NCBI RefSeq assembly: GCF_014203325.1
Contig: NZ_JACHIV010000001.1
Location: forward strand, 5,953,501 to 6,017,500
Reading direction: 5' to 3'
Length of the DNA: 64,000 bases
Source of the DNA: Saccharopolyspora gloriosae
GTDB lineage: Bacteria > Actinomycetota > Actinomycetes > Mycobacteriales > Pseudonocardiaceae
In this document: positions 15,547-56,569 of the stretch, one piece after another
Position numbering within the stretch: position 1 is the stretch's first letter
How the letters are laid out: each line of letters begins with the position of its first letter
Position numbers and translations under genes: made by a program
Notes under the pieces: model-generated
Told to the model about the DNA's origin: nothing
Databases searched by the model: none
The model's input: only the letters and a program-made list of their open reading frames with translations

Positions 15547-15651
15547 GTAGCGGAACCTCAGCTTCCTTCTCGCTGCGGGATCTTTTTCCCAAGTGGCTCC
15601 GCCACGAGGGAAAAAGCTGTCCTCGCGAGAAGGAAGCTGAGAACCCGCCGG
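15547..15651 (+). ncRNA. Covarying-stem element, copy A
   Basis: The 85-nt core (15557-15641) is closed by a perfect 17-bp stem: CTCAGCTTCCTTCTCGC with GCGAGAAGGAAGCTGAG. Inside are TTTTTCCC / GGGAAAAA and a GTGGC-TCC-GCCAC hairpin. The flanks GTAGCGGAAC and GAACCCGCCGG are shared with other copies. The interior matches copies B and D base for base, while the outer stem differs yet remains fully paired. It lies 3' of and in sense with the DUF2771 gene. Typed ncRNA as the best available label; transcription is not shown. Confidence 0.75.
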
Positions 15652-15895
15652 TGGTCGGCTTCTTGACGTGGGCTATTCGCTGCGCGAATACAGGCACGGC
15701 CTACGGCCGCAAGGCAAGCTTGCTTCGCAGCCCACTGCACGGCCTTCGGCCGCAAGGCAGGCTTCGGCCGCAAGGCAGGCTTGCTTCGCAGCCCACTGCA
15801 CGGCTTCGCCGCCAGGCACGGCCTTCGGCCGCGAGGTGGGGTTGCTTCGCGGCCGAAGGCATGGCTTCGGCGCTGAGTACGGCGCTAACCCAGCC
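15652..15895. repeat. Second covarying hairpin plus array of GGC-TTCG-GCC hairpins (copy A)
   Basis: TATTCGC-TGC-GCGAATA at 15674-15690 is the counterpart of TATGTGC-TTC-GCACATA in copy B. After it come imperfect units built on GGCCTTCGGCCGCAAGGC and a segment TTGCTTCGCAGCCCACTGCA that recurs at 15720 and 15781. Many units fold as short stems with TTCG loops. No open frame here looks coding. This fills most of the gap between the DUF2771 and cspB genes. Confidence 0.7.
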
Positions 15896-15961
15896 ACACG
15901 CCCGAACCGGGGAAGGCTCTACGACCCGACGCCGCACGTCGGGCGACCCTTCGCTCCCGGA

Positions 15962-16354
15962 TCAAGCCCCCGGATCGAGCTCGCGGGCGACCGCGCGGAC
16001 GACTTCGCCGATGCGCTTGGACACCTTGCGGTCGGGGTACTTGCCGTGGCGCAGGTCGGGCAGCACCTTCAGCTCCAGCAGTTTGATCATGTCGTCGACC
16101 ATCCCGTGGAGTTCGTCCGCGGGGCGGCGCCGGGCTTCGACGACCGACGGGGGCGGGTCCAGCAGCTGGATCCGCAGCGCCTGCGGTCCGCGGCGGCCCT
16201 GCGCCATGTCGAAGTCGACGCGTTGACCGGTCTTGAGCGATTCGACGTCGGACGGCAGCGCGGAGGACCGCACGTACACGTCCTCCCCACCGTCCTGGGT
16301 CACGAAGCCGAAGCCCTTGTCCGCGTCGTACCACTTGACCCTGCCGGTCGGCAC
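15962..16354 (-). CDS. cspB: Cold-shock domain protein, CspB type with C-terminal extension
   Basis: 130 residues. Residues 1-68 are a cold-shock domain with RNP1 KGFGFV and the RNP2-like region [11 protein letters not shown] helical extension ([40 protein letters not shown]) follows, as in the long mycobacterial CspB. It binds single-stranded nucleic acid and likely acts as an RNA chaperone. GTG 16354 gives the usual start [13 protein letters not shown]; another GTG nine bases upstream is possible. Its 3' end faces the hairpin array. Confidence 0.85.
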
Positions 16355-16745
16355 TGTCCTCACCGTTCCCTGTCGATGCCCTGCCCGCGCGTTCCACCTC
16401 GGGGCCCGAAGCGGGCGAGCCGGAAGCGAGCGGGTCCCTCTGGTCGTCATCGTGCGTCGTGCCGAGGACGCGATCCGGCCCTAGCACAACAAAAACGCCC
16501 CGGAACACCACACTGCCGAGCGTTCCCAGGACGCGTCGACTCCAGGATACCCGCCCGGAACAAGACATCACCGCCCCTTTCACCCAGGGCCGCCCGCGCA
16601 TCGACCGGCAGCGCCGTGCGCAGGCGTTTCTCCCGCGTTCCCGCGCAGCGGCGGCGGAGCGACACCCGGTCGGCCGCGTCCGGCCGGGCGAGGTCCCGCC
16701 CACACCCGGGCCGAGCGGGCGGGTGCAGCGCTTACGCTGATCGGC

Positions 16746-16952
16746 ATGAGCGCCGCGCCGTCCCGTTCGATCGTGCTGCCGCTCGCGGTGGGCCTGTTCG
16801 CCGCGGGCGTGCTCGCGGTGGTCGTGGTGTTCGGGCTCTACGCGACGGGCATCGCGGACTTGCCGCTGTGGTTGAACCTGGCGACGCTGCTGGCCCCGCT
16901 CGGGTTGATCGTGGGCGTCGTGGGGGCCGTGGCCCGCACCCGCCGCCGCTGA
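16746..16952 (+). CDS. Small two-helix membrane protein
   Basis: 68 residues with two hydrophobic segments (about 9-31 and 40-62) and a basic end TRRR. No family recognised. ATG 16746 is the start. Its TGA abuts the TCA complement of the convergent HAD gene with no spacer. Confidence 0.6.
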   Translation: MSAAPSRSIVLPLAVGLFAAGVLAVVVVFGLYATGIADLPLWLNLATLLAPLGLIVGVVGAVARTRRR

Positions 16953-17564
16953 TCAGCCTGCGCGCGCGGCGAGCCAGGCCGGGAATTCGGTGAGGTCGGC
17001 GAACACCACGTCGGCGCCCGCTTCGACGAGCTCGTCTGCCCGGTAGGGCCCGGTGGCGACGCCCACCGCGACGGCTCCGGCGGTCTTCGCGCCGACGATG
17101 TCGCCGAGGTGGTCGCCGACGTAGATCGAGGCACCTTCGTCGATCAGCACGTCGCCCTTGGCGGCGGCGAACACGTCGCCCGCGAGCCGGTCGACCTGCC
17201 AGTCGAGGGCTTTCAGGTGCAGTTCTGCGTTGCGCTCGAACTTGCCGGTGACGACGAGCGCGCGGCCGCCGTGGGCGCGCACGGCCGCCAGGGCTTCGTC
17301 GGCGCCGGGCATCGGCCGGGTCACCGGGATGACGACGTCGGGGTACAGCTCCCGGAACCGGGCGACGAGGCGGTGCACCAGTTGTTCGTCGAACCCGTAG
17401 GTGCGCAGCACGTCGGGCAGCGGCGGGCCGAGGTTGGCGGCGAAGTGCTCGCCGTCGACGGGCACTCCGAATTCGTCGCGCAGCCGGTCGAACACGGCGA
17501 TCATGCCTGGCCGGGGGTCGATGAGGGTCAGGTCGAGGTCGAATCCGACGGTCGCAGCAGTCAC
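16953..17564 (-). CDS. HAD family hydrolase (phosphoglycolate phosphatase-like)
   Basis: 203 residues. Motif I is FDLDLTLIDP (nucleophile D9, acid D11), motif II is LVVTGKF, and the late YVGDHLGDIVGAKTAG supplies the acidic pair of motif IV. A helical cap lies between motifs I and II. This is the Gph/PGP-like subfamily that removes phosphate from small metabolites; the substrate is not determined by sequence. GTG 17564 is the start. The next gene (R2lox) is divergent. Confidence 0.8.
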   Translation of the reverse strand: MTAATVGFDLDLTLIDPRPGMIAVFDRLRDEFGVPVDGEHFAANLGPPLPDVLRTYGFDEQLVHRLVARFRELYPDVVIPVTRPMPGADEALAAVRAHGGRALVVTGKFERNAELHLKALDWQVDRLAGDVFAAAKGDVLIDEGASIYVGDHLGDIVGAKTAGAVAVGVATGPYRADELVEAGADVVFADLTEFPAWLAARAG

Positions 17565-17613
17565 GGGTGCAGGCTAACGGGGGAACGCGGGAGTCCGGTC
17601 GCCCTTGACGCGG

Positions 17614-17656
17614 AACTCTTGGGTACCGAAAATCGGTGTGTAACGTGACTCACACC
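17614..17656 (+). promoter_or_regulatory. R2lox promoter with inverted-repeat operator candidate
   Basis: GGTGTG (17635-17640), a 10-nt spacer TAACGTGACT, then CACACC (17651-17656) forms a palindrome just upstream of the oxidase gene. A TTGGGT box near 17619-17624 and TAACGT at 17641-17646 are 16 bp apart and could be -35 and -10, which would place the operator over the -10. Confidence 0.45.
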
Positions 17657-17680
17657 TCTCGGGCGAGCTGGAGCAGGCCA

Positions 17681-18643
17681 ATGACGACCACCACGCACAG
17701 CAGCAAGCACCGCGACGACTTCCACTCCCTGCGCCCCGGCGGCCTCAACTGGGATTCCCTGCCGCTGCGGCTGTTCACCAAGGGCAACGCCAAGTTCTGG
17801 AACCCCGCCGACCTCGACTTCACCCAGGACGCGCAGGACATGGCGGGACTCACCTACGACGAACGGCGCAGCGTCGCCGGACTCTGCGCCGAGTTCATCG
17901 CCGGGGAGGAAGCGGTCACCCAGGACCTCCGCCCGTTCCTGTCCGCGATGGCCGCCGAGGGCCGGTTCGGCGACGAGATGTACCTGACCCAGTTCATGTA
18001 CGAGGAGGCCAAGCACACTCAGGCCTTCCGGCTGTGGATGGACGCGGTCGGCCTCAACGAGAACCTCAACGAGTACGTCGACGACAACCCCGGCTACCGC
18101 ACGATCTTCTACGACGTGCTGCCGACCGTGCTGCACGCGCTGGACACCGATCCGGGGCCGCGCAACCAGATCCGGGCGTCGGTCACCTACAACCACGTCG
18201 TCGAGGGCTCCCTGGCGCTTACCGGGTACTTCGCGTGGAACAAGATCTGCCGCGGCCGGGGCCTGTTCCCCGGCATGCAGAAGCTCATCGGGCACATCGG
18301 TGACGACGAGCGCAGGCACATGGCGTGGGGCACGTTCACCTGCCGGCGCCACGTGGCCGCCGACGAGAAGAACTGGGACCACGTCGACGAGATGATGCAG
18401 GAGCTGCTGCCGCACGCGATGGAGCTCATCCAGTGGGTCCCGGCGGACGCGCCCGAGGTGCGGCCGTTCGAGCTCGACACCGACGAACTGCTCACCTACG
18501 CCACCGACCGGGCGAGCCGCCGCCTCGGCGCGATCTCCTCGGCCCGCGGCACTCCGCTGGCCCAGATCGACGTGGACGCCTCCCCCGAGCAGCTGGAGGA
18601 CCAGTTCGGCGCCGAGGACGAAGCCGAACTCGCCAAGGCTTGA
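17681..18643 (+). CDS. R2-like ligand-binding oxidase (R2lox)
   Basis: 320 residues, a ferritin-fold Mn/Fe oxidase related to ribonucleotide reductase R2 and to Mycobacterium tuberculosis Rv0233. All six metal ligands align with a constant offset of +8: E76, E109, H112, E175, E210 and H213. The residues of the Val-Tyr ether crosslink, V79 and Y170, are also present. It is predicted to assemble a Mn/Fe site and bind a fatty-acid-like ligand; the physiological substrate is not known. ATG 17681 is chosen for the family's usual start and a GGAG upstream. A strong terminator follows. Confidence 0.9.
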
Positions 18644-18651
18644 CACCCGCC

Positions 18652-18693
18652 CCGGAGTCCCCGCAATTTCGCGAGAAATTGCGGGGACTCCGG
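18652..18693. terminator. Strong intrinsic terminator hairpin
   Basis: A perfect 19-bp stem (CCGGAGTCCCCGCAATTTC and its complement) with a GCGA tetraloop, 9 bp after the R2lox stop. A weaker relative (CAATTT-CGCGCT-AAATTG) lies about 75 bp further on. Confidence 0.8.
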
Positions 18694-18910
18694 ACTTGTC
18701 CACAGCCCTCACAACCTTGTTGAGCAGGTACTACGCCGATCTAGTGGCGGGTCGGCTCGTTCAATTTCGCGCTAAATTGCGCGAGTTCTCCACACCTGAA
18801 CGAGCTGTGGAAGAGGGGTGGCCGTTGGCGGTCGCCGGGAGTGCTCGGCGACCGCTCGTGGATGGTCCGATCCCGCCCCGCCACCGCGATCTTCGCGGCA
18901 CACTGGCGAG

Positions 18911-21055
18911 GTGACGGAGCACGGCCGGGACCGCAACACCAACCGCGGCACCGTCGGCGGTGACCTCGTGCAGGTCGGCGGCGATGTGCACGGTGATCTC
19001 ATCGTGCACCCGGAACCGCCGGCCCCCAGCGGATCGCCGGAAGCGTCGGCGCGGGAGCTCGCACGCAGGGTGGCCGCGCTCAGCCGCGAAGAAGGTGAGC
19101 GGTGGGGACTGGACGATCCGGGGGCGCTGCCGGTGCGCTGGCACCCGGCGCCGGAGGCCCTGGTCGACCACTGGGACAACGTTCAGCGCGACGAGGCGCG
19201 GCCCCGGTCGTTGACCGGTTCCTTCACCGAGATCCGGCGGACCTACCGCGACGTGCACTCGGAACGGCTGGTGGTCCTGGGCCGTGCCGGTGCGGGCAAG
19301 ACCGCGCTGGTCCACCGGCTCATCCTCGATCTGCTGGCGGAGCGCGGTCGCGCCGGGCGGGTGCCGGTGCTGTTCGGTCTCGGCGACTGGAACCCCACCA
19401 CCACCGGCCTGCGGGCTCGGCTCGTCGACCTGCTCGAACGCGACCACCCCTTCCTGGTGGGCGGGAAGGCCGCCGCGCTCGTCGAGGACGAGTGGGTGCT
19501 GCCCGTCCTCGACGGCTTCGACGAGATCCCCGTGCGCTCCCGACGTGAAGCCGTCCGCGAGATCAGCAGGTTGGCGTCGCCGGTCGTCGTGACCAGCAGG
19601 CGGGACGAGTACGCCGACGCGGTGGGCGCGGACCGAGCGGTGCGCGGCGCCGCAGTGATCGAACTCGACGACCTCCGCCCGAGCGAAGCCGCGCACCACC
19701 TGCGCCGCGGCAGCGGGAAGGCCCGTGCCGCCGAGTGGGCGGCGGTGTTCGAGCACGTGCGCTCCGAACCGGACGCACCCGAGAGCCGGAACCTGGCCGC
19801 GGCCCTCACCACCCCGCTCTTGGTGGCACTGGCCCGGACCGGCCACGACGACGCGGACCGCGACCCCGCCGAACTGCTCGACCCCGACCGCTTCCGCACC
19901 CCGGAACGACTCGAAGAACACCTGCTGAGCGTCTACCTGGACACCCGGTACGACCCCGTCCGTCGCCCCGGGCGGTGGCGCCCGGACCAGGCCCACCGCT
20001 GGCTCCGCCGCCTCGCCGCCGACCTGGTCGTGCGAGGCTCCCACGACCTCGCCTGGTGGCGGGTACCGGCGGCGCTGCGCCGCCGCACCCGGGTGCTGGT
20101 CACCGCCGCCTCGTTCGCGCTCTGCTTCGGGGCGCCGGGACTACTGCTCGGGCTCTGGGCCGAGCTCACGGCGGTGTGGTTCGGGGTCGGACTCCTCACC
20201 GGCCTCAGCGCGGAGCTGCGGACCTGGTACTCGGGCGAGCACGAACCGGAACGGGTCCGGCTGCACCTGCGGCGACCGAGCTCCAAGCGGCGGCCACGGG
20301 GCCGCAGGCTGGTGCTGTGGTTCGCGCTCGTCTTCGTGATCGCGATGCTGTTCGGAGGTGCGGTGGCGTTCGCCGGCGGCTTCAGGAACGGGCTCGTGGC
20401 CGCCACCGCGTTCGCGGCCACGTTCGGGCTGGCGGGCACGATGCGGATGATCCGCGACGATCGGGCTCGGCGAACGACCCCGCTGCGGACGCATCCGCTG
20501 CTCAGCGTGCTGGTCGTCGTGCTGGTGGCCGTACTGGAGTCGGTGTTCGCGGCGGGCGTGGTGGCCGTGACCGTGGCGGCGTTCGCTCCCGGCATCGCCG
20601 CGGAGTCGGTCGTGGCGCTGGCCGGAACGCTCGCGGGCGCCTTGGCGAACGGGTCGGTGTCCGCGCTCGGCGAGGATCAGGCCGACGACGCGACGGACCC
20701 GTGGCAACTGCTGCGCGCCGACCGCGCGGTCGCCCTCGGGCGTGCGGCTGTGCTCGTGCTCGCGACCGGGCTCACCGCCGTGGTCGCGGGCGCGGTGACC
20801 GGCCACCTCGGATACGGGCTGACCTTCGGAGCCATCGCCGGGATCATGCTCGCGGCGACGCGGGTGGCGCTGTCCGCGTGGGGCGGCTGGCTGCTGTTCG
20901 CGCGTCTGTGGCTGCCGCTGACGGGGCGGCTGCCGTGGCGGCCGAAGCGGTTCCTCGACGACGCCTACGACCGGGGCGTGCTGCGCAGGGCGGGCGCGGT
21001 CCACCAGTTCCGCCACGCCCGCCTGCGCGACCACCTCGCGGGCACCGACCGGTGA
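18911..21055 (+). CDS. NACHT-type STAND ATPase with RHIM-like N-terminus and membrane C-terminus
   Basis: 714 residues. Residues 13-32 are a Gly/Val repeat containing VQVG (20-23), the core tetrad of RHIM-type amyloid signalling motifs. The P-loop is GRAGAGKT (124-131), Walker B is LDGFDEIP (200-207) and a sensor-like VVVTSRRDEY follows, in the NACHT pattern. From about residue 390 to 640 there are paired hydrophobic segments, predicted as roughly eight membrane helices. There are no leucine-rich, WD or TPR repeats. Related NACHT proteins serve as antiphage sensors, and RHIM-like tags recruit effectors by amyloid templating; both roles are inferred here. GTG 18911 has only a weak site. Confidence 0.8.
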   Translation: MTEHGRDRNTNRGTVGGDLVQVGGDVHGDLIVHPEPPAPSGSPEASARELARRVAALSREEGERWGLDDPGALPVRWHPAPEALVDHWDNVQRDEARPRSLTGSFTEIRRTYRDVHSERLVVLGRAGAGKTALVHRLILDLLAERGRAGRVPVLFGLGDWNPTTTGLRARLVDLLERDHPFLVGGKAAALVEDEWVLPVLDGFDEIPVRSRREAVREISRLASPVVVTSRRDEYADAVGADRAVRGAAVIELDDLRPSEAAHHLRRGSGKARAAEWAAVFEHVRSEPDAPESRNLAAALTTPLLVALARTGHDDADRDPAELLDPDRFRTPERLEEHLLSVYLDTRYDPVRRPGRWRPDQAHRWLRRLAADLVVRGSHDLAWWRVPAALRRRTRVLVTAASFALCFGAPGLLLGLWAELTAVWFGVGLLTGLSAELRTWYSGEHEPERVRLHLRRPSSKRRPRGRRLVLWFALVFVIAMLFGGAVAFAGGFRNGLVAATAFAATFGLAGTMRMIRDDRARRTTPLRTHPLLSVLVVVLVAVLESVFAAGVVAVTVAAFAPGIAAESVVALAGTLAGALANGSVSALGEDQADDATDPWQLLRADRAVALGRAAVLVLATGLTAVVAGAVTGHLGYGLTFGAIAGIMLAATRVALSAWGGWLLFARLWLPLTGRLPWRPKRFLDDAYDRGVLRRAGAVHQFRHARLRDHLAGTDR

Positions 21056-21058
21056 GGC

Positions 21059-22699
21059 TCAGTCCTCCAAGCCGAGCAGGTCCTTCGCCTGCTGGCGCAT
21101 CTCGACCTTGCGGATCTTGCCGGTGACGGTCATCGGGAAGTCGTCGACGACGTGCACGTAGCGGGGGATCTTGTAGTGCGCGAGCTTGCCGGTGCAGAAC
21201 TCGCGCAGCGCTTCCGCCGTGAGCTCCGGCGCCCCGGCCCGCAGCCGCGCCCACACCATCAGCTCCTCGCCGTAGCGCGCGTCGGGAACGCCGATGACCT
21301 GCGCGTCCACGATGTCCGGATGGGTGTAGAGGAACTCCTCGATCTCCCGCGGGTACACGTTCTCGCCGCCGCGGATCACCATGTCCTTGATCCGCCCGGT
21401 GATGCTGACGTACCCGGCGGAGTCCATCACCGCGAGGTCGCCGGTGTGCATCCAGCGCGCCTCGTCGATCACTTCGGCGGTCTTGTCGGGCTGCTCCCAG
21501 TAGCCCAGCATCACCGAGTACCCGCGGGTGCACAGCTCCCCCGATTCGCCGCGCGGCACGGTGAGCCCGGTGACGGGGTCGACGACCTTGACCTCCAGGT
21601 GCGGCCCGACCCGGCCGACGGTGGACACGCGGCGGTCCAGCGAGTCGTCGGCGCGGGTCTGCGTGGACACCGGCGAGGTCTCGGTCATGCCGTAGCAGAT
21701 GGACACCTCGGTCATGCCCATCCGGTCGATGACCTGCTTCATCACCTCCGCCGGGCACGGCGAGCCCGCCATGATGCCGGTGCGCAGCGAACTCAGGTCG
21801 AAGGTGTCGAAGTCCGGGTGGTCGAGCTCGGCGATGAACATCGTCGGCACCCCGTACAGCGAGGTGCAGCGCTCGGCCGAGACCGCCTCCAGGGCCGTGC
21901 GCGCGTCGAAGCCCTCCGACGGGATGATCACCGCCGCGCCGTGGCTGGTGCAGGCGAGGTTGCCCATGACCATGCCGAAGCAGTGGTAGAAGGGCGGCAC
22001 GATGGCGACCCGGTCCACTTCGGAGTAGCCGCAGAGCTCCCCGACGAAGAAACCGTTGTTGAGGATGTTGTGGTGCGACAGCGTCGCGCCCTTCGGGAAC
22101 CCGGTGGTGCCCGAGGTGTACTGGATGTTGATCGGATCGTCGGCGCCGAGCTCGGCCTGCGCCGCGGCCAGCCGCGCCGCATCCCCCGCCCGGCCGCGGT
22201 CGAACAGCGCGTCCCAGGTGGCGTCGTCGAACAGCACGACCTGCTCCAGGCCGGGGCAGTTCGGGCGCACCTGCTCGATCATCTCGGTGTACTCGGAGGT
22301 CTTGAACCGCTGCGCCGACACCAGCATCCGCACCCCGGCCTGGTTGAGCACGAACTCCAGCTCGTGCAGCCGGTACGACGGGTTGATGTTGACCAGGACG
22401 GCGCCGATCTTCGCCGTCGCGTACTGGGTGAGCGTCCACTCCGCCCGGTTCGGCGCCCACACGCCCACCCGGTCACCCTTGCCGATGCCCGCCTCCAGCA
22501 GGCCGAGGGCCAGCGCGTCCACGTCCGCGACGAACTCGCGGTAGGTCCAGCGGCGCCCTCGCGCGTGCTCCACCAGCGCGTCGGAATCCGGCACGCGGGC
22601 GGCGACGCGGTCCAGGTTGCCCCCGATGGTGTCGCCGAGCAGCGGCACCTCGGAGATCCCCGAGTCGTAACTGGGTTCTGCTGGTCGAACGGTGTCCAC
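21059..22699 (-). CDS. Acyl-CoA synthetase, AMP-forming (FadD-like)
   Basis: 546 residues. The adenylation motif [16 protein letters not shown], the CYGMTETSP motif, [19 protein letters not shown] and the C-terminal catalytic Lys context ([14 protein letters not shown]) are all intact. It activates a carboxylic acid, probably a medium or long fatty acid, to its CoA thioester. GTG 22699 is chosen because GGGAGGG lies five bases upstream. It converges on the NACHT gene with 3 bp between stops. Chain-length preference cannot be read from the sequence. Confidence 0.9.
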
Positions 22700-24155: not shown

Positions 24156-24172
24156 GGGAAACCTCACCGCCT

Positions 24173-30779: not shown

Positions 30780-30956
30780 ACGGAAGCCCGCAGCGCCGAA
30801 CCCTGTCCGGCGGGCTTCCCACCCCCGAAAGAAACCAACCGGACAGGGGCGGGGGAACCACCACTGGGCGCCCCGAACGCCCTAGGGGTGAAGCCGGCTC
30901 CCGAGCCGGCCGGGCTGCCTCTCAGTCCGAACCCGACAGCTCACCTCGCAAGCGCG
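30780..30956 (+). ncRNA. c-di-AMP riboswitch (ydaO/yuaA class)
   Basis: The conserved signatures appear in order: CGCCGAACCCTGTCCGG, GGGGGAACCA, TAGGGGTGAAG, a GCCGGCTCCCGAGCCGGC stem, and TCCGAACCCGACAGCTCACC with CTCGCAAGC. These are the invariant segments of the ydaO class, which in actinobacteria commonly precedes cell-wall hydrolase and rpf genes and lowers expression when c-di-AMP is high. Boundaries are approximate. It ends about 13 nt before the rpf start. Confidence 0.9.
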
Positions 30957-30969: not shown

Positions 30970-31596
30970 ATGACTCGCTACGAAGGCAAGCACCGCAAAC
31001 CTTCCACCGCCGGCATCGCCCGCAACGCCGCCCGGCTGGCCATCGCCGGTGCCGTGGTCGCCGCCCCGATCGCGATCGCAGCACCCGCCAACGCCGCCGA
31101 CTGGGACAAGCTCGCGCAGTGCGAGAGCAGCGGGAACTGGAGCGCCAACACCGGCAACGGCTTCTCCGGCGGACTCCAGTTCACCCCGTCCACCTGGGCC
31201 GCCTACGGCGGCACCCAGTACGCGTCGAACGCCAAGGACGCCAGCCGCGAAGAGCAGATCGCGGTCGCCGAGAAGGTCCTCGCCTCGCAGGGCTCCGGCG
31301 CCTGGCCCGGCTGCACCGCGAAGACCAGCTGGACCAGCGGCAGCACCAGCAGCAAGTCCAGCAGCTCCTCGGAGAAGAGCTCCTCCTCGAAGAAGAGCGA
31401 GACCAGCTCCAAGAAGTCCACCAAGAAGTCGACCGTGAAGTCCGGCGGTGCCGACTACACGGTGCAGACCGGTGACACCCTGGGCAAGATCGCCAGCCAG
31501 TACGGCGTGAACTACCAGGACATCTTCGAGCGCAACAGCCACGTGCTGGACGACCCGAACATGATCTTCCCGGGCCAGCAGCTCGACATCAAGTGA
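30970..31596 (+). CDS. rpf: Resuscitation-promoting factor with LysM domain
   Basis: 208 residues. A signal peptide ends near APANAA (about 41). The Rpf catalytic domain (ADWDKLAQCESSGNW to VLASQGSGAWPGC) keeps the catalytic Glu in QCESSGNW and the structural Cys pair. A Ser/Lys linker of about 40 residues leads to a LysM peptidoglycan-binding domain (YTVQTGDTLGKIASQYGV). It is a secreted muralytic enzyme that stimulates regrowth. GGAGAGGG precedes ATG 30970. Likely controlled by the CRP site and the c-di-AMP riboswitch upstream. Confidence 0.95.
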   Translation: MTRYEGKHRKPSTAGIARNAARLAIAGAVVAAPIAIAAPANAADWDKLAQCESSGNWSANTGNGFSGGLQFTPSTWAAYGGTQYASNAKDASREEQIAVAEKVLASQGSGAWPGCTAKTSWTSGSTSSKSSSSSEKSSSSKKSETSSKKSTKKSTVKSGGADYTVQTGDTLGKIASQYGVNYQDIFERNSHVLDDPNMIFPGQQLDIK

Positions 31597-31712: not shown

Positions 31713-31759
31713 GTTTCACTTTTTGGGGGTTGCACGGCTCTTTTTGCTTTGGTGTCCGG

Positions 31760-31864
31760 GTAGCGGAACCTCAGGTGTCTTCTCGCTGCGGGATCTTTTT
31801 CCCAAGTGGCTCCGCCACGAGGGAAAAAGCTGTCCTCGCGAGAAGACACCTGAGAACCCGCCGG
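31760..31864 (+). ncRNA. Covarying-stem element, copy B
   Basis: The 85-nt core (31770-31854) is closed by CTCAGGTGTCTTCTCGC / GCGAGAAGACACCTGAG, a perfect 17-bp stem different from copy A. The interior and flanks GGTAGCGGAAC and GAACCCGCCGG match copy A. It lies downstream of rpf in the same sense, after the rpf terminator. Confidence 0.75.
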
Positions 31865-32150
31865 TGAGGACTTCTCGACGTGGGCTATGTGCTTCGCACA
31901 TACAGGCACGGCCTCCGGCCGCAAGGCAGACTTCGCTTCGCTCGTCCAAGGCACGGCTTCGCCGCGAGGCACGGCCTTCGGCCGCCAGGCAAGCGTGGCT
32001 TCGCCCGCCCACTGCACGGCTTTCGCCGGCAGGAACGGCTTCGGCCGCGAGGCGGGTGCGCTTCGCCGCCCACTGCATGGCTTCGCCGCTTGGCCTGCCT
32101 TTGGCCGTAGGGCGGGTGGGGCTTCGCCCGCTTTGGGCCGGAGGGCAGGC
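31865..32150. repeat. Second covarying hairpin plus TTCG-hairpin array (copy B)
   Basis: After a shared CTCGACGTGGGC stretch comes TATGTGC-TTC-GCACATA (31886-31902), the counterpart of TATTCGC-TGC-GCGAATA in copy A. An array of GGC-TTCG-GCC units follows, with ACTGCACGGC and ACTGCATGGC spacers as in copy A but with a different unit order. No coding frame is credible here. Confidence 0.7.
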
Positions 32151-33837: not shown

Positions 33838-33930
33838 CTTGATCTTGCCTTCCCAGGTGAGCGGCACCGTTGGTCCTCGTCCTGTCAGCGGCGAAGCCGC
33901 TGAGCAGCGACCCAGCACGCAACCGGACCA
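33838..33930 (-). repeat. Downstream module of element copy C
   Basis: Read on the minus strand this is GGTTGCGTGCTGGGTCGCTG, then TCAGCGGC-TTC-GCCGCTGA (33885-33903), then a segment ending CTGGGAAGGCAAGATCAA. The same order occurs after copy D and in the truncated copy E. The TTC/TCC loop varies while the stem is invariant. Confidence 0.7.
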
Positions 33931-34035
33931 CCCGCGGGTTCTCAGCTGCTTCCTCGCGAGGACAGCTTTTTTCCTCGTGGCGGAGCCACTAGGGAAAAAG
34001 ATCCCGCAGCGAGGAAGCAGCTGAGGTTCCGCCAC
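33931..34035 (-). ncRNA. Covarying-stem element, copy C
   Basis: Minus-strand copy. The core (33941-34025) is closed by CTCAGCTGCTTCCTCGC / GCGAGGAAGCAGCTGAG, again perfect and again unlike the other copies. The interior differs from A, B and D by two substitutions, A to T before the central hairpin and G to A after it. It lies about 40 bp downstream of the malic enzyme gene, in that gene's sense. Confidence 0.75.
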
Positions 34036-34075
34036 CCGACCACACGCCCAAACCGACCGGGCGGGCACTCCGGGC

Positions 34076-35530
<1,455 letters not shown>

Positions 35531-49760: not shown

Positions 49761-50528
49761 GTGGCCCGACTCGCTCGCGGCCTGGCCGGACTGGCCGGCC
49801 TGCTGGTGCTCTGGGAGCTCTGCTGCGCGCTCGGCGTGCTCGACGCCCGCTTCATCCCGCCGCCCTCCACGGTGGGACCGCGCATCGTCGAACTGCTCGG
49901 CACCGACGCGGAGTTCGCGCTGGACACCATCGCGACCATCCTGACCTTCCTCATCGCGCTCGGGCTCGCCGCGCTGATCGCGATCCCGCTGGGCCTGCTG
50001 CTGGGCAGCGTCCGCCCCGCCCGGGTCGCGGGCCTCACCGTCGTCGAGTTCCTGCGCCCGCTGCCCGCGGTGGCGCTGCTGCCGCTGTTCATGCTGCTGC
50101 TCGGCTCCGGCCCCGAGACCAAGATCGTGCTCGCCACCTACGCCGCGCTGTGGCCGATCCTGTTCAACACCATGTACGCGCTGGACGAGATGGACCCGCT
50201 CTACACCGACATCGCGCGGTCCTTCGGCTTCGGCAAGGTGCGCACCATGTTCACCGTGGCGCTGCCGCACGCGGCGCCGTTCATCGCCACCGGCATCCGC
50301 ATCTCGGCCTCGATCGCGCTGGTCGTCGTGGTCGTCGTGGAGCTCATCGCGGGCGGGGCCCGCGGCGTGGGCACCTTCATCCTCGAAGCGAGCAGCGGCG
50401 GCGGGCAGATGGACCTGGTGCTCGCGGGCACGGTCATCGTCGGCGCCATCGGATACCTGATCAACTCCGGGCTGCAGCAGGCGCAACGCCGGCTGTTCGG
50501 CTGGACCGAGAGCCGGGAGGAACTGTGA
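49761..50528 (+). CDS. ABC transporter permease 1 (SsuC/TauC type)
   Basis: 255 residues with about six membrane helices and the coupling loop YTDIARSFGFGKVRTMFTVALPHAAPFIATG. It belongs to the nitrate/sulfonate/taurine permease group. GTG 49761 has AAGGAG upstream. The downstream permease gene overlaps its stop (GTGA). Confidence 0.9.
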   Translation: MARLARGLAGLAGLLVLWELCCALGVLDARFIPPPSTVGPRIVELLGTDAEFALDTIATILTFLIALGLAALIAIPLGLLLGSVRPARVAGLTVVEFLRPLPAVALLPLFMLLLGSGPETKIVLATYAALWPILFNTMYALDEMDPLYTDIARSFGFGKVRTMFTVALPHAAPFIATGIRISASIALVVVVVVELIAGGARGVGTFILEASSGGGQMDLVLAGTVIVGAIGYLINSGLQQAQRRLFGWTESREEL

Positions 50529-51328
50529 CGCTACTCCGGAACTTCCTGGGCAAGTGGGGTCTGCTGCTGATCGCGGTGGTGCTCTGGGAGCTCGCCACCC
50601 GCGCCGCGGGCAACGTCTACTTCCTGCCGCCGACGGAGATCGTGGCGCACGCCTGGGAGATCTGGCTGACCGGGCCCGCCTCGCAGCTGTGGCTGACCGA
50701 CGCCGTCTTCCGCGACGTGCTGCCCAGCCTGGGCAGGCTGTTCGGCGGCTGGCTGATCTCCGGCGTGATCGGCGTGGTCGTCGGCATCGCGCTCGGCCGC
50801 TCCCGCACGGCCACCGAGTACGTCGGGCCGCTGCTGGACTTCTGCCGCTCGCTGCCGACCCCGGCGCTGGTGCCGCTGTTCCTCGTGCTGTTCAGCCTGG
50901 GCACGCCGATGCAGCTGGCGACGATCATCTTCGGCACCGTGTTCACCGTCGTGCTCAACACCGCCGACGGCGCGGCCTCGGTGGACGCCGTCAAGCAGCA
51001 CACCGCCGCGGCGTTCCGCATCGGGCGCTGGCAGTGGTGGACGCGGATCGTGCTGCCCGCCGCCGCACCCAAGATCTTCGCTGGGCTGCGGGTCAGCCTC
51101 TCGCAGGCGCTGATCCTGATGGTGGTGTCCGAGATGGTCGGCGCCAGCTCCGGCCTCGGCTTCCAGCTGATCTACGCGCAGCAGCAGTTCGAGTTCCCCG
51201 ACCTGTGGGCCGGGATCGTGCTGCTGGCGCTGCTGGGCTACCTGCTCAACACCGGCCTGCTCGCGGTGCAGCGGCGCGCGCTGAGCTGGCAGCAAGTCTC
51301 CGACCAGCCCGCTCAAGCGAAAGGATGA
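50525..51328 (+). CDS. ABC transporter permease 2 (SsuC/TauC type)
   Basis: 267 residues, about six helices, with coupling loop HTAAAFRIGRWQWWTRIVLP. Diverged from permease 1, which suggests a heterodimeric channel. GTG 50525 overlaps the first permease stop; its own stop overlaps the ATPase start (ATGA). Confidence 0.9.
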   Translation: MTLLRNFLGKWGLLLIAVVLWELATRAAGNVYFLPPTEIVAHAWEIWLTGPASQLWLTDAVFRDVLPSLGRLFGGWLISGVIGVVVGIALGRSRTATEYVGPLLDFCRSLPTPALVPLFLVLFSLGTPMQLATIIFGTVFTVVLNTADGAASVDAVKQHTAAAFRIGRWQWWTRIVLPAAAPKIFAGLRVSLSQALILMVVSEMVGASSGLGFQLIYAQQQFEFPDLWAGIVLLALLGYLLNTGLLAVQRRALSWQQVSDQPAQAKG

Positions 51329-52137
51329 CCGTGAGCACCATGCTGGAAGTGACCGGGCTCGGGCACACCTACCCCGGGAAGCAGCGGCACGTCGCCATCG
51401 AGGAGCTGGGCTTCGCGGTGCGCACCGGCGAGCTCACCTGCATCGTCGGCCCGTCCGGCTGCGGCAAGTCGACGCTGCTGCGCATCATCGGCGGACTGCA
51501 GCGCCCGACTTCGGGCAGCATCGCGCTGCGCGGCACCGAGATCGACGGCGTGCCCGAGGACCTCGCCGTGGTGTTCCAGGACTACAGCCGCTCGCTGTTC
51601 CCCTGGATGACGGTGCGCGGCAACGTGGAGTTCCCGCTGCGCACGCGCTCGGTGAACCGCCGGGAACGCGCCGAGGAGGCGCTGGCCTGGGTCGGGCTCT
51701 CGGACGCGGCGAAGAAGTACCCGTGGCAGCTCTCCGGCGGCATGCAGCAGCGCGTCGCCATCGCCCGCGCGCTGGCCACCCGGCCGGCGCTGCTGCTGAT
51801 GGACGAGCCGTTCGCGTCCGTCGACGCGCAGACCCGGTTCGAGCTGGAGGACCTGCTGCTGTCGGTGCGCCGGGAGTACGGCAGCACGATCCTGCTGGTC
51901 ACCCACGACATCGACGAGAGCATCTACCTGGGCGACCGGGTGCTGGTGCTGTCCAAGTCGCCCGCGACGGTGGTGGCGGAGCTGGACGTGCCGCTGGGCT
52001 CGCAGCGGGACCAGATCGGCACCCGCGCCTCGGCGGAGTTCGTGCGGCTGCGCAGCCACGTGGCGCGGCTGCTGCACTCGCCCGCGGCGACCGCCGACCC
52101 GCGCGCGGCGGTCTCCGGCGGCGCCACCGCGGAGTGA
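51325..52137 (+). CDS. ABC transporter ATPase (SsuB/TauB type)
   Basis: 270 residues. Walker A GPSGCGKST, Q-loop VFQDYSRSLFPW, signature LSGGMQQRVAIARAL, Walker B LLMDEPFASVD and the H-loop VTHDIDE are intact. The QDYSRSLFPW variant is typical of the nitrate/sulfonate/taurine subfamily. ATG 51325. Solute likely an organic anion, unproven. Confidence 0.9.
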   Translation: MTVSTMLEVTGLGHTYPGKQRHVAIEELGFAVRTGELTCIVGPSGCGKSTLLRIIGGLQRPTSGSIALRGTEIDGVPEDLAVVFQDYSRSLFPWMTVRGNVEFPLRTRSVNRRERAEEALAWVGLSDAAKKYPWQLSGGMQQRVAIARALATRPALLLMDEPFASVDAQTRFELEDLLLSVRREYGSTILLVTHDIDESIYLGDRVLVLSKSPATVVAELDVPLGSQRDQIGTRASAEFVRLRSHVARLLHSPAATADPRAAVSGGATAE

Positions 52138-52407
52138 TCCCGGCCACCTGACGACGCGACACCCGCCGCCCGCCCCTCGGCGCGCGGCGGGCACATCGCT
52201 TCGGAACGTGATCGCCGAGTCCGGTGAATTCTGGTCCCGGACGCCATTCACGGCCCCGAATCCGAGTACTTACTCGGAAGTAGTGATCACTCTCCGAATA
52301 CGGGCTCCGGGTGAATCATGAAAAGACTGGGGAAAATCCCAGAATTGCCGTCCGCACCCGGAGCTCGGATTGTTCGCGAGGGATTCCCCCCGAATTCGGG
52401 AATTCGA

Positions 52408-54003
52408 TCAGTACAGTTTCCGGCCGCTCGGCGCGACCGGGACGTGCAGCACCGTCGGCCCCGGTTCGGCCAGCGCCGCGCGCAGCTCACGGTCCAGCTC
52501 CGCCAGGTCCTCCACCCGGCGCGCCGAGCAGCCCAGCCCGCGCGCGACCGCGACGAAGTCGATGCCGCCGAGCGCGACACCGGGCATCTTGCCGTCGGAG
52601 CCGACCTCGCCGAGCACCCGCACCGCCGCGTACTCCTCGTTGTCCAGCACCAGCATCGTCAGCGACGCGTGCTCCTTGGCGGCCGTCCACAGCGCCTGGA
52701 TGCCGTACATGCTGGCGCCGTCACCGATGATGCCCAGCACCGGACGGGACGGGGCGGCCAGCGCCGACCCGACCAGCGCGGAGATCCCGTAGCCCAGCGA
52801 ACCGCTGGCCCCGGCGTGGAAGTCCTGGTCGGGCGAGTGGAACGGCAGGTGCCGCTGGATCGTCTGCTTGTGCGTCGGCGCCTCGGTGACCACCACGGCG
52901 TCCGCGGGCAGCAGCTCGTGCACCAGGCTGATCACGTGATCGGCCTGCGGCGGGTTGGTCAGCTCCGGCAGTTCCGGGCGCTCCCAGGCCGTGGCGGCGG
53001 GCCGATCGGACGGCGCGACCTCGCCCAGCAGCTGCCGCAGCGCCGGGGCGAGCCCCGCGTGCACGCCCCGCAGGTGCTGGGTGCGGGCCAGGATCTCCGG
53101 GTCGTCGCTGATCACGTAGCCCTGCGGCCTGCGGTGCTCCGGTTCGCCGCGGTAGACGTGGTAGGTGAACGCGGGCGCCCCGAACACCGCGACCAGGTCG
53201 TGGTCGCGCAGCGCGGCGGCCACCGCCGGTTCCGCGGGCTGCAGGAACCCGGCGAACTGCGGGTGCGTCTCCGGGAACGAGGAGCGCGAGACCATCGGCG
53301 AGATCCACACCGCGGCGCCGGTGCGCTCGGCCAGCTCCACCAGGTCGGCGACGGCGCCCGCCTCGATGACGGCGGGCCCCACGACGAAGGCGGGGCGCTC
53401 GCAGTCGCGCAGCGCGGTGGCGAGCTCGGTGATCACCGCCGGGTCCGCCGCGGGCGCGGCGACGGGGTGCGGGGCCGTGACGGGCTCACCCGGCTGGTCC
53501 CAGTCGTCGGCAGGCACGGACAGGAAGACCGGGCCGCGCGGACCTTGCATCGCCAGTTGGTACGCCCTGATCAGCGCCAGCGGAACGTCGGCGGCGCGGG
53601 CGGGCTCCAGCGACCACTTCACGTACGGCTTGGGGAACTGCGCGGCTTCGGTCGCGCCGAGGAAGGGGTCGTGCGGCAGCAACCTGCGGTCCTGCTGGCC
53701 GGCCAGCACGATCATCGGCGTGCGGTTGCGGTAGGCGCCGAACACCGCTCCGAGCGCGTGCCCGACCCCGCCGGCGGAGTGCAGGTTGACCAGCACCGCG
53801 TTGCCCGTCTGCTGGGCGTACCCGTCGGCCATCGAGGTCACGACGGACTCCTGCAGCCCGAGCACGTAGCGGAAGTCGTCCGGCCACTGGTCCAGGAACG
53901 GCACCTCGGTCGTGCCGGGGTTGCCGAAGACGGTCGTCAACCCGAGATCGCGCATAAGGCCGCGCGTGACGTCGCGCACGGTCGGCCCACCTGAAGCCTC
54001 CAT
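52408..54003 (-). CDS. mdlC: Benzoylformate decarboxylase-like ThDP enzyme, copy 1
   Basis: 531 residues. Compared with the Pseudomonas enzyme from memory: Glu of LQES (E52) for cofactor activation, NLHSAGG (H75, the H70 equivalent), AFTYHVY (H281 equivalent) and the ThDP motif GDGASMYG are all present. The catalytic Ser26 of GNPGS is Thr here (T31 in GNPGTTEVPFL). It would decarboxylate a 2-keto acid; aryl specificity is uncertain. ATG 54003 has AGGAG upstream. It is divergent from binding protein 1. The copy at 56666-58255 is a clear paralogue. Confidence 0.8.
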   Translation of the reverse strand: MEASGGPTVRDVTRGLMRDLGLTTVFGNPGTTEVPFLDQWPDDFRYVLGLQESVVTSMADGYAQQTGNAVLVNLHSAGGVGHALGAVFGAYRNRTPMIVLAGQQDRRLLPHDPFLGATEAAQFPKPYVKWSLEPARAADVPLALIRAYQLAMQGPRGPVFLSVPADDWDQPGEPVTAPHPVAAPAADPAVITELATALRDCERPAFVVGPAVIEAGAVADLVELAERTGAAVWISPMVSRSSFPETHPQFAGFLQPAEPAVAAALRDHDLVAVFGAPAFTYHVYRGEPEHRRPQGYVISDDPEILARTQHLRGVHAGLAPALRQLLGEVAPSDRPAATAWERPELPELTNPPQADHVISLVHELLPADAVVVTEAPTHKQTIQRHLPFHSPDQDFHAGASGSLGYGISALVGSALAAPSRPVLGIIGDGASMYGIQALWTAAKEHASLTMLVLDNEEYAAVRVLGEVGSDGKMPGVALGGIDFVAVARGLGCSARRVEDLAELDRELRAALAEPGPTVLHVPVAPSGRKLY

Positions 54004-54098
54004 CAGCATTCTCCTCAGCAGCGGCCGCACATTCACATATTTCCCTCAATGCGAGAAAAAAGCGTCGCCGACCGACATCGTGCTACACCGAGCCCCAA

Positions 54099-54108
54099 TG
54101 TAATTACA
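54099..54108. promoter_or_regulatory. TGTAATTACA palindrome in the divergent mdlC/SBP region
   Basis: A 10-bp perfect palindrome in the otherwise GC-rich space between the decarboxylase (minus) and the binding-protein gene (plus). It fits the size of a regulator half-site pair. No regulator gene is adjacent. Confidence 0.35.
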
Positions 54109-54269
54109 GTTGGTCACGGGGAACTAGATCACCTTGACACGCTCGGGTAAGTGCGATTCCAATCCTATTGCAGCCTGTTTAGCAGGCCAGACGTGGGCTT
54201 CCGGCGCGCCACCCCGCTCGGGCACCTCCGTCCCCCTTTACGCACGCTCGCCCGAGGAGGCACCCCCGC

Positions 54270-55325
54270 ATGCCGAGCAGACCGACCGGATCCGCATCTC
54301 GCGGAAGGCGCCGCGCGACCCGCGCGCTGCTGTCCATTGCCGCCATCGGCATCACGACCTTCACGCTGAGCGGCTGCGGTCTGCTCAGCGGCTCCGACGG
54401 GGCGAGCGGCGACAGCAGTGGTGGCAAGCTGGAGAAGGACACGGTCGTGGTGGGTTCGCTGCCCGCGCTGTCCCAGGCTCCGATCGCGGTGGCGCAGGCC
54501 AAGGGCTACTTCGCCGACGAGGGCCTCACCGTCAAGGTGCAGCCGGTCTCCGACGGCCCGGCGGCGCTGACCTCGCTGATCTCCGGTCAGAACGACGTGA
54601 GCCTCGGCAGCTACACCGCGCCGATCAAGGCGCAGGCCACCGGCGCGGCCGACCTCAAGATCATCAGCGAGATGATGATCTCGGTGCCGAACACCATGAA
54701 CATCATGGTGCTGCCCGGGTCCAAGATCAAGAAGCCGGAGGACCTGGCCGGCGCCAAGATCGCCTACAGCGCGCCCGGCGCCATCACCGACATCGGCACC
54801 AAGGCCGCGCTGCAGGACCGGGGCATCAACGTCTCCGACGACCAGTTCGTGCGCTTCGGCTTCCCCGACATGCTGCCCGCGCTGCAGAACGGCCAGATCG
54901 ACGCCGCGGTGATGACCGAACCCTTCATCACCCAGGCCGCCAAGAACGCCGGCGCCGTCTCGATCATGGACGCGTTCTCCGGCGGCACCGCGGACTTCCC
55001 GGTGGCCGGCGCCATGACCACGGCGAAGTTCGCCGAGGAGAACCCGGAGACGCTGAAGGCCTTCCAGCGGGCCGTGCAGCGGGCGCAGGTGGCCGGGCAG
55101 AACCGCGCCGAGGTCACCCCGCTGCTCCCGCAGTTCGCCAAGATCACCCCGGAGCTGGCGCCGATCGTGGAGCTCGGCAAGATCCCGACCTCGATGGACG
55201 CCTCCCGGCTGCAGCGGGTCGCGGACCTGATGCAGCGCTTCGGGCAGATCGACAAGAAGGTCGATGTCTCCACGATGCTGGTCCAACCGCCTCCGTTGGA
55301 GCAGAATTCGACCGGTGGCGCGTGA
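54270..55325 (+). CDS. ABC transporter substrate-binding lipoprotein 1 (SsuA/NMT1-like)
   Basis: 351 residues. Long basic N-region, then signal segment and lipobox LSGC (about 33-36). The binding fold has the typical start VVVGSLPALSQAPIAVAQAK, GYFADEGLTVKVQPVSDG and PFITQAAKNAGA. GAGGAGG lies upstream of ATG 54270. It probably feeds the permease pair at 49.8-52.1 kb, although the two are separated by mdlC copy 1. Confidence 0.85.
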   Translation: MPSRPTGSASRGRRRATRALLSIAAIGITTFTLSGCGLLSGSDGASGDSSGGKLEKDTVVVGSLPALSQAPIAVAQAKGYFADEGLTVKVQPVSDGPAALTSLISGQNDVSLGSYTAPIKAQATGAADLKIISEMMISVPNTMNIMVLPGSKIKKPEDLAGAKIAYSAPGAITDIGTKAALQDRGINVSDDQFVRFGFPDMLPALQNGQIDAAVMTEPFITQAAKNAGAVSIMDAFSGGTADFPVAGAMTTAKFAEENPETLKAFQRAVQRAQVAGQNRAEVTPLLPQFAKITPELAPIVELGKIPTSMDASRLQRVADLMQRFGQIDKKVDVSTMLVQPPPLEQNSTGGA

Positions 55326-55429
55326 TCACGCACCACTAGGCAGCTGAAGCCGGATCGCCGGCGACCGGGGCGGGTCGCCGGCGAACTGCTGTCGGTCCCC
55401 GTGCTCCGCCCGACGAGGAGGCCCCGGCC

Positions 55430-56437
55430 ATGTCCGCTTCACCTCGACGGTTACCGGCCAGGCCGCTGTCCCGGCGCGGCCTGCTCGCCGCGGCGGGCTC
55501 CGCCGCGCTGCTCACCACCAGCGGCTGCGGGCTGCTCGGCCGCGCGCGGGACGACGGCGGGAACGACCGCGTCGAACAGGCCACGATCACCGTGGGCACG
55601 CTGCCGACCACGGAGTACGCGCCGCTGGCGCTGGCCGTGCGGCGCGGCTACTTCCAGCACGAAGGCCTCCAGGTCGAGATCACCAAGGCCACCGACGGCA
55701 GCGCCGCGCTCACCTCGCTGATCAGCGGCGAGTACGACGTGGCCCTGAGCAGCTACGTGCCGCTGCTGACCGCGCAGTCCCGAGGCGCGGCCGACCTGCG
55801 CATCGTCGCCGACGCCGGAGCCGCCGCGCCCGGCACCGCCGTCGTGATGGTCCCGCCCGACTCACCCGTCCGCGGGCCCGCCGACCTGGTGGGCCGGGTC
55901 GTCGGCGTCAGCGCCATCGGCACCGTCTCCGACCTGCTGGTCAAATCCGCGCTGCACGACGCGGGCGTGCCCACCGACCGCGTGGAGCTGGCGCCGATCT
56001 CGTTCCCGAACATGCCCGCGGCCCTCGCGCAGCGGCGCCTCGACGCGGCGCTGGTCACGGAACCCTTCATCACCATCGCCACCCGCGAAGGCAGCGCGCG
56101 CACCGCGTTCGACACGGCCGTCGGGCCCGCCGAAGGACTGCCGCTGTCCGGGTACGGCGCCACCGCGCGCTTCGTGCAGGACAACCCGCGCACGGTCGCC
56201 GCGTTCCAGCGCGGCCTCACCCGCGCCACGCTGGAGGCCAGGGACCGCCGGACGGTGGAGCCGCTGCTGCCCGACGTCGCGCGGATCTCCCCGGAGGTCG
56301 CCGCCGAGACGGAGCTGGTCACCTACCGCGCGGTGCCCGACGGCACCCAGATGCAGCGCGTCGCGGACCTGATGCACAGCTTCACCTTCATCGATCATCC
56401 GCTAGACGCGACAACGCTCATCGCTTCTGGGGCTTGA
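55430..56437 (+). CDS. ABC transporter substrate-binding lipoprotein 2 (Tat-type signal)
   Basis: 335 residues. The signal has a twin-arginine-like SRRGLLAAAG followed by a lipobox TSGC (about 31-34). The body parallels binding protein 1 (VGTLPTTEYAPLALAVRRGY, PFITIATREGSA) at clear but lower identity. GAGGAGG precedes ATG 55430. Two binding proteins for one transporter suggest two related ligands. Element copy D follows 38 bp after the stop. Confidence 0.85.
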   Translation: MSASPRRLPARPLSRRGLLAAAGSAALLTTSGCGLLGRARDDGGNDRVEQATITVGTLPTTEYAPLALAVRRGYFQHEGLQVEITKATDGSAALTSLISGEYDVALSSYVPLLTAQSRGAADLRIVADAGAAAPGTAVVMVPPDSPVRGPADLVGRVVGVSAIGTVSDLLVKSALHDAGVPTDRVELAPISFPNMPAALAQRRLDAALVTEPFITIATREGSARTAFDTAVGPAEGLPLSGYGATARFVQDNPRTVAAFQRGLTRATLEARDRRTVEPLLPDVARISPEVAAETELVTYRAVPDGTQMQRVADLMHSFTFIDHPLDATTLIASGA

Positions 56438-56464
56438 TGGCTGCTCGTTCTGCGTAGGGGTTGG

Positions 56465-56569
56465 GTGGCGGAACCTCCGTCGTCTTCTCGCTGCGGGATC
56501 TTTTTCCCAAGTGGCTCCGCCACGAGGGAAAAAGCTGTCCTCGCGAGAAGACGACGGAGAACCCGCGGC
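56465..56569 (+). ncRNA. Covarying-stem element, copy D
   Basis: The core (56475-56559) is closed by CTCCGTCGTCTTCTCGC / GCGAGAAGACGACGGAG, a perfect 17-bp stem unlike copies A-C. The interior matches copies A and B base for base. It lies about 30 bp downstream of binding protein 2, in sense. Confidence 0.75.

Follow-up and report, generated by a model that had tools for sequence, protein, structure and literature searches.

A miniature palindromic repeat at gene 3′ ends in Saccharopolyspora, with a variable stem probably rebuilt by template switching

Several families of small repeats and one copying process frame the element described here. Repetitive extragenic palindromes (REPs) measure 20–40 bp (PMC3733652), and for the Correia/NEMIS and ERIC repeats a transcribed hairpin is reported to affect mRNA (PMC2229807). 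Homogenisation of the arms of a palindrome and inversion of its spacer are outcomes of template switching (PMC8604942), which has also been proposed to maintain RNA stems (PMC8794818). In Saccharopolyspora erythraea, 190 putative noncoding RNAs have been reported, with antisense transcription enriched at gene 3′ ends, and the available part of that report holds nothing on the present repeat (PMC3610266). We analysed a repeat that occurs four times in a 64,000-nucleotide stretch of Saccharopolyspora gloriosae, positions 5953501–6017500 of the 6.83-Mb chromosome of the host genome (G000, C1), hereafter the window. Our preferred explanation, to which we give a probability of about 0.57, is that it is a miniature, imperfectly palindromic 3′-end repeat, with a stem rebuilt by template switching during replication and loops kept by selection or by the spread of intact copies. 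Most copies lie in sense just past stop codons and turn over fast between sister species, and their closing stem has a nearly fixed length with a free sequence in the middle. In rare copies, one arm has been rewritten as the complement of the other; that the same process is the general cause of the paired changes is what we infer.

The element and its covarying stem

The initial annotation had described an 85-nt element at 15557–15641, 31770–31854, 33941–34025 (inverted) and 56475–56559, with exactly complementary 17-nt arms around an almost invariant 51-nt interior. The sequence bears this out. The 17-nt arms are exact reverse complements in each copy, giving a perfect closing stem (P1) of 17 bp every time, and the interior is identical in copies 1, 2 and 4 and differs at two positions in copy 3. 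The inverted copy 3 does lie on the opposite strand, simply downstream of a minus-strand gene. A covariance model of 137 positions, built from 28 copies of 9 genomes, gave four sense matches in the window at 132.9–141.6 bits (E 9e-34 to 1.4e-31). The next four matches (39.3–41.8 bits) are the same places on the opposite strand and the final four reach at most 16.2 bits, and no strong match to the model was found in the window beyond the four copies. The element extends beyond 85 nt: conserved sequence flanks it on either side, a second variable hairpin (P3) follows it, and it has a weaker, locus-specific outer stem. The features are as follows, in window coordinates.

15535..15671, plus strand: copy 1, span of the covariance model (cmsearch, 141.6 bits)
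15550..15556, plus strand: copy 1, GCGGAAC, 5′ side of the outer 4-bp stem and of the AAC/AAC loop (near-invariant across 28 copies, 9 genomes)
15557..15573, plus strand: copy 1, 5′ arm of P1, CTCAGCTTCCTTCTCGC (sequence)
15574..15624, plus strand: copy 1, interior with the bulged core helix and P2, nearly invariant (sequence, alignment A1)
15625..15641, plus strand: copy 1, 3′ arm of P1, exact complement (sequence)
15642..15648, plus strand: copy 1, AACCCGC, 3′ side of the AAC/AAC loop and of the outer stem (near-invariant across 28 copies, 9 genomes)
15674..15690, plus strand: copy 1, P3, second variable hairpin, TATTCGC-TGC-GCGAATA (sequence)
31748..31884, plus strand: copy 2, stem arms 31770–31786 and 31838–31854 (132.9 bits, sequence)
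31886..31902, plus strand: copy 2, P3 hairpin, TATGTGC-TTC-GCACATA (sequence)
33911..34047, minus strand: copy 3, in sense to the minus-strand gene 34076–35491 (138.7 bits, sequence, gene calls)
56453..56589, plus strand: copy 4, stem arms 56475–56491 and 56543–56559 (135.5 bits, sequence)
56597..56615, plus strand: copy 4, P3 hairpin, TCAGCGGC-TTC-GCCGCTGA (sequence)

From the outside inwards, the main hairpin of about 100 nt is formed by a 4-bp outer stem (GCGG/CCGC), the AAC/AAC internal loop, the 17-bp P1, a TGC bulge, a core helix and P2, with P3 following downstream. Across the sampled genera the core hardly varies; its helix has five pairs (GGGAT/GTCCT), and two wobbles are retained in nearly all sequences. 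P2 is largely constant inside one genome, where older variants exist, and differs among genera. P1 varies freely in its middle and hardly at all in the few pairs at either end, and its 5′ arm measures 17 nt in 270 of 281 measurable copies. Changes on both sides were found in 16 of the 33 pairs in the 28 copies from 9 genomes. The covariation is strong, with a score of 0.312 compared with 0.091 ± 0.009 for shuffled data (0/500 shuffles) and at most 0.097 for slid pairing.

The surroundings of the hairpin also carry signals. In 95 copies with one (short) form of P3, the sequences before and after the element show locus-specific complementarity (mean 27.6 versus 25.5, 0/2000 permutations; a local alignment score was used, since RNA duplex energies are dominated by GC content), which could reflect the element ends or a split target hairpin. 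GGTAG or GGTGG precedes CGG (that is, GTAG or GTGG before CGGAAC) in most copies printed. By eye and with exceptions, the base before GCGG (A or G) often tracks the base after CCGC (C or G) in columns 16 and 131 of alignment A1, as in TAGCGG with CCGCCGG and TGGCGG with CCGCGGG.

We then turn from the window to the family, where the pairing is less than perfect. Of 442 core matches, 292 passed a filter on core and flanks that was blind to pairing, and among these copies the stem is perfect in 154, has one non-Watson–Crick pair in 72, two in 28 and three or more in 38. The claim that the stem covaries perfectly thus holds for the four window copies and fails for the family. Thirteen of the 150 filtered-out matches had at most one core mismatch and were examined, and both chance matches and true variants were present; when overlapping matches were allowed, 291 of 439 passed, and the stem counts changed by a single copy. 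The copies hold 39 distinct perfect P1 stems. Recent inversion between two parent copies, which the initial annotation had named as a possible source of all stem variants, does not explain this number.

The paired changes do not look like those of ordinary RNA evolution, as there is no G-U excess and transversions are about as frequent as transitions. An RNA stem normally accommodates G-U much more readily than A-C. Read on the sense strand, the unique arm pairs with no more than three bad pairs (n = 125) contain 73 A-C and 26 G-U among their non-Watson–Crick pairs; with position 9 left out, the counts are 45 and 24 (p = 0.015), and in P2a they are 23 and 13. Copies are not independent (subfamilies share arms), and this comparison was made on unique arm pairs, with no tree. 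Single-pair neighbours among the 39 perfect arms comprise 19 transitions and 17 transversions. In the conserved parts, C>T (12/2896) and G>A (10/3161) are equally rare, and T>C (41/1460) exceeds A>G (3/846). This T>C surplus could favour A-C pairs, but 34 of the 41 changes fall at one site.

Rewritten arms

To count rewritten arms, we used exact flank patterns over six congeneric genomes (G000–G005). Normal exact flanks were found at 741 places. At 13 places (5 in G000, 4 in G001 and 4 in G002), AAC on the 5′ side has become GTT, which is the reverse complement of the opposite AAC, and the AAC/AAC loop is therefore closed. The mirror event, with the 3′ strand of the loop rewritten, was found at one place. 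Five places (3 in G000, 2 in G001) show an inverted interior behind a normal 5′ flank, a sixth listed row being the place of the mirror event, and one loop-closed copy of G002 also has its inner P2 inverted. The loop closures are strongly one-sided, as the 3′ strand is affected at G000 C1:2446339–2446436 and the 5′ strand at the 13 other places.

Flanks could be read in three loop-closed copies (L203, L224 and L276) from a separate scan, whose two other candidates and single candidate in the reciprocal arrangement are chance or degenerate sequences. All three retain a normal 5′-type sequence upstream of GCGG. This indicates that only a short tract was rewritten, and it makes exchange with an inverted copy of the repeat unlikely. 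Since the flanks otherwise vary at 8 of 1939 positions (in the filtered set, hence an underestimate), three adjacent changes that all match the complement are very unlikely to be separate mutations. Two hallmarks of template switching in a quasipalindrome are present, namely a multi-base change that matches the complement of the opposite arm and inversion of the spacer. Selection on structure and a copying process that rebuilds both arms had been the two sources proposed for the paired changes in the initial annotation; both find support, and copying has left direct fingerprints in the 13 + 1 closures and the five inversions.

The simplest route to such rewriting would be a switch of the nascent strand from one arm to the other as template during DNA replication. 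A mutation in one arm would then be either erased or copied into both arms in a single step, and covariation would arise without stepwise compensation. The loop-closing change occurs but is rare. This rarity, together with the near-invariant core and the lack of decayed full-length copies described below, suggests that the internal loops, the 17-bp length and the position are maintained, either by purifying selection or because intact copies spread preferentially. With less confidence, we propose that the hairpin, once in the transcript, may end or protect the 3′ end of the upstream mRNA, and that P1 may act as a rigid spacer between two recognised loops. The stronger statement, that a stem of fixed length and free sequence is rewritten by template switching, that selection holds its loops and that the covariation is largely a mutational product, is tentative and in our estimate somewhat short of an even chance.

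Position, turnover and distribution

Genes were called with our own codon-usage caller rather than taken from annotation. Both neighbours were called for 129 copies, and in 110 of them the upstream gene is in sense, with a median of 39 nt (quartiles 34 and 44) from its stop codon to GCGGAAC. The 129 copies lie between convergent genes in 77 cases, between tandem genes in sense in 33 and antisense in 14, and between divergent genes in 5. In 1.2 Mb of the host genome, a copy is present in 45 of 176 convergent gaps, 27 of 523 tandem gaps and 1 of 181 divergent gaps. Lying near the stop, in sense and mostly between convergent genes, the element may have a terminator or 3′-end role. Ten of the 110 sense copies are found 130–180 nt past the stop. 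In a few fully read copies, an additional module containing a GTGGAAG...CTTCCAC hairpin precedes the element on its 5′ side (G000 5864600–5865100; L213; L254), and at the L254 site the composite with this module is inverted in the sister species.

Comparison of related genomes reveals fast turnover. For 29 host sites, both flanks were found in G002; by eye, 15 of these hold a copy in the same orientation, 3 a copy in the opposite orientation and 11 none. P1 differs at 18 of the 18 occupied sites common to host and G002. The same holds for NFXS83, about 90–96% identical in blocks, in which P1 differs at 7 of 7 common sites, 3 of them with opposite orientation. NFXS83 lacks a counterpart of one host copy, and at the place of one of its own copies the host has only a remnant-like sequence. 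A site that changes its stem has therefore usually had its copy replaced rather than mutated in place. One host copy stands directly behind a terminator-like hairpin, and G002 has that hairpin but lacks the element. Inspection by eye of a few junctions, filled and unfilled, gave no evidence of target duplication. Three apparent filled sites in G005 were chance matches, and the turnover counts come from G002 and NFXS83.

In genomes with one or two matches, the element was found at the end of gatB (G087, G114, G134 and G165). The modelled span starts right after the gatB stop in the first three and about 20 nt further in G165. Copies L320 and L321 of this site differ at 4 of 105 positions, which make up two complete paired changes in P1 with none elsewhere. 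Between L320 and L322, 14 of the 34 P1 positions differ, with six pairs altered in both arms, and so do 8 of the 71 remaining positions. One C-A mismatch in the middle of P1 is kept in L320, L321, L322 and L236 (position 11, 11, 9 and 11, respectively), and L236 bears further mismatches besides; C-A at position 9 of P1 recurs in 28 of the 125 unique arm pairs. The idea that gatB is the universal ancestral site was dropped, as it is not the site in G054 or G150.

We further determined the size and spread of the family. A DNA search gave 425 first-look candidates in the host genome, 40 of which were scored, and exact flank patterns occur at 299 places there. In 1.2 Mb of the host genome the covariance model found 75 full copies, all at 102 bits or above; the 73 other listed matches reach at most 53 bits and are, as far as read, opposite-strand overlaps of full copies. 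Nothing scored between 53 and 102 bits in the 1.2 Mb, i.e. no decayed full-length copies were found, and fragments would escape the model. A search of related genera placed the element (E ≤1e-4) in 41 of the 150 Pseudonocardiaceae genomes sampled and in 13 of their 46 genera, with from 1 to at least 22 matches per positive genome. A pattern scan of named genomes gave mainly Saccharopolyspora among the matches listed. Real copies were confirmed by reading in Actinopolyspora, Halopolyspora, Prauserella and Saccharomonospora (copy L210); matches in Qipengyuania, a planctomycete and Actinomadura look like chance, without flanks.

The repeat is chromosomal. It has no match in the phage or plasmid collections searched, and an origin from phage or plasmid was rejected, the sole viral-contig match being a chance pattern without a paired stem. 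Compared with the 4227 models of Rfam, the element stays under every gathering threshold (best sub-threshold match 28.3 bits, 90.5 needed), and a known Rfam RNA was rejected, in agreement with the initial annotation, which had recognised no matching family. We found no publication describing the repeat in the open-access literature, a search that leaves out most subscription journals. The only Rfam match above threshold in the window lies elsewhere, a cyclic di-AMP riboswitch (RF00379, 54.3 bits) at 30837–30950 on the plus strand. It is just upstream of gene 30970–31596, which is also the gene preceding copy 2. Two further features follow P3 of copies 1 and 2.

15692..15873, plus strand: array of short GC hairpins in units of about 61 nt, downstream of copy 1 (Tandem Repeats Finder)
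31903..32128, plus strand: hairpin array downstream of copy 2 (Tandem Repeats Finder)

Both arrays consist of 61–63-nt units of short GC hairpins (CACGGCTTCGCCGC etc.) and perhaps represent a second mosaic repeat family.

Alternative explanations and comparison with known repeats

A number of observations weigh against a 3′-end repeat with a stem rebuilt by template switching. Loop closures and inversions affect about 2–3% of the exact-pattern places, so the share of template switching in the covariation of P1 is an extrapolation. Other processes could produce the same events: recombination between the arms can invert the interior, and hairpin-mediated repair can close the loop. Imperfect stems persist in 138 of the 292 copies, which means that correction is not fast and that frequent mismatches, thought at the outset to speak against paired change, are partly a feature of the family. 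Recombination between copies probably acts as well: among 40 informative imperfect arm pairs, 14 are chimeras that join two known arms, and two of the 14 carry four mismatches (another 55 imperfect arm pairs are unclassed, and single-mismatch chimeras could equally be intermediates). At the gatB site, L236 has lost pairing, differing from L320 at 3 of 34 P1 and 2 of 71 other positions with no compensated pair, and selection alone could yield the paired changes between L320 and L321. As for the role in the transcript, no T-run (U-tract) was seen by eye right after P1 or P3 in the four window copies, and a classical intrinsic terminator is therefore not evident. The best hairpins of 46 orthologous 3′ ends taken as element-free, a few of which still held diverged copies, are only modestly stronger than shuffled sequence (−28.2 versus −24.7 kcal/mol), with 52% versus 47% at −25 kcal/mol or below; some of these ends do bear strong hairpins.

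The fast turnover raises the possibility of a non-autonomous mobile palindrome, similar to YPAL or to miniature inverted-repeat transposable elements, that inserts beside terminator hairpins and is mobilised only as paired-stem copies, so that the active lineages covary. This is a possible explanation, although we consider it less probable than not. It would account for the 425 dispersed candidates in one genome, the filled and unfilled orthologous sites, the host copy behind a hairpin that G002 has without the element, the stems that differ at 18/18 and 7/7 common sites with opposite orientation at 3/18 and 3/7, and the finding that full-length copies are either intact or gone (none at 53–102 bits, with fragments missed by the model). 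Dispersal and turnover therefore agree with the palindromic mobile element suggested in the initial annotation. However, no target duplication is evident at the junctions read by eye, phage and plasmid collections gave no match, and no mobility enzyme has been linked to the repeat, Y1_Tnp, the only transposase family searched, being absent in G000–G003. Gene conversion between copies would also explain the replacement at common sites. A REP element mobilised by a RAYT (Y1) transposase, to which the GGTAG or GGTGG before CGG in most copies printed might point, is highly improbable and was rejected. PF01797 is found in 0/4 of the element-richest congeners (G000–G003), yet in G004 and G005, which have the fewest copies, and in 5 of 14 control genomes; moreover, the hairpin of about 100 nt contrasts with the 20–40 bp of REPs (PMC3733652).

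If the folded molecule is RNA, the repeat could be a classical structured RNA of the sense 3′ untranslated region, bound by a protein or forming a tertiary fold, with a stem that covaries by ordinary compensatory selection. The nearly invariant bulges and loops across the sampled genera, the two wobbles kept on the sense strand of the core, the sense orientation at a narrow distance from the stop codon, a sense fold stabler than the antisense fold in 8 of 10 folded copies and the compensated changes at the low-copy gatB site are all consistent with this. It is nevertheless unlikely, given that the residual mismatches lack the sense-strand G-U excess expected of an RNA stem (A-C 73 against G-U 26, and 23 against 13 in P2a), that transitions are hardly favoured over transversions and that the loop closures show the arms can be rewritten. 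The structured RNA of the initial annotation is weakened on this point. Reading the opposite strand turns the same mismatches into 73 G-U and 26 A-C, the AAC/AAC loop into GUU/GUU (G-U, U-U, U-G) and the C-A mismatch kept in all four gatB-site copies into U-G, as would be expected if the antisense strand folds as RNA or single-stranded DNA. We regard this as quite improbable, since it is the sense gene whose stop codon lies at a narrow distance, the two core-helix wobbles become A-C, the G-U excess is only about 2:1 without position 9 and 8 of 10 copies fold less stably in antisense.

Paired stem changes are usually taken as the strongest sign of a selected RNA structure. Here, hundreds of comparable copies in one genome show the products of a mutational process able to make paired changes alone, and they offer a measure of the frequency and direction of rewriting (13 on the 5′ strand versus 1 on the 3′ strand). 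If rebuilding by template switching is correct, the family is a natural assay that counts template-switch events per genome. With about a quarter of the convergent gaps in 1.2 Mb occupied (45/176), the repeat may also be a major part of transcript ending in these actinobacteria.

The nearest known kind is the small palindromic repeat of the YPAL/RU-2 type. As described in PMC2229807, YPAL/RU-2 of Yersinia is likewise a miniature palindromic repeat with internal inverted repeats, without 5′-TA termini and not A+T-rich; it was judged recently mobile from empty and filled sites, is linked to upstream genes, and has targets in or beside dyad symmetry. The position at gene 3′ ends is also similar, with 110 of 129 of our copies behind a sense gene at a median of 39 nt. 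Compared by description rather than by sequence, the present repeat differs in that no target duplication was seen, the sense distance past the stop is narrow, and the length of P1 is kept while its sequence is copy-specific. With REP/BIME it has in common the hundreds of extragenic palindromes, GTRG beside a hairpin and a mosaic with other hairpin arrays, whereas it is two to three times longer or more, is strongly oriented to the upstream gene and has no Y1 transposase in the copy-rich congeners. The Correia/NEMIS, ERIC and RUP repeats are also intergenic imperfect palindromes, but their listed features include terminal inverted repeats, TA termini and target duplications (PMC2229807), and none of these was evident here. 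Finally, RNA hairpins maintained by template switching share the paired changes made by one-step copying between arms. In PMC8794818 those changes are inferred from reconstructed histories of RNA genes, whereas here hundreds of paralogous copies stand in one genome, with closures and inversions directly visible.

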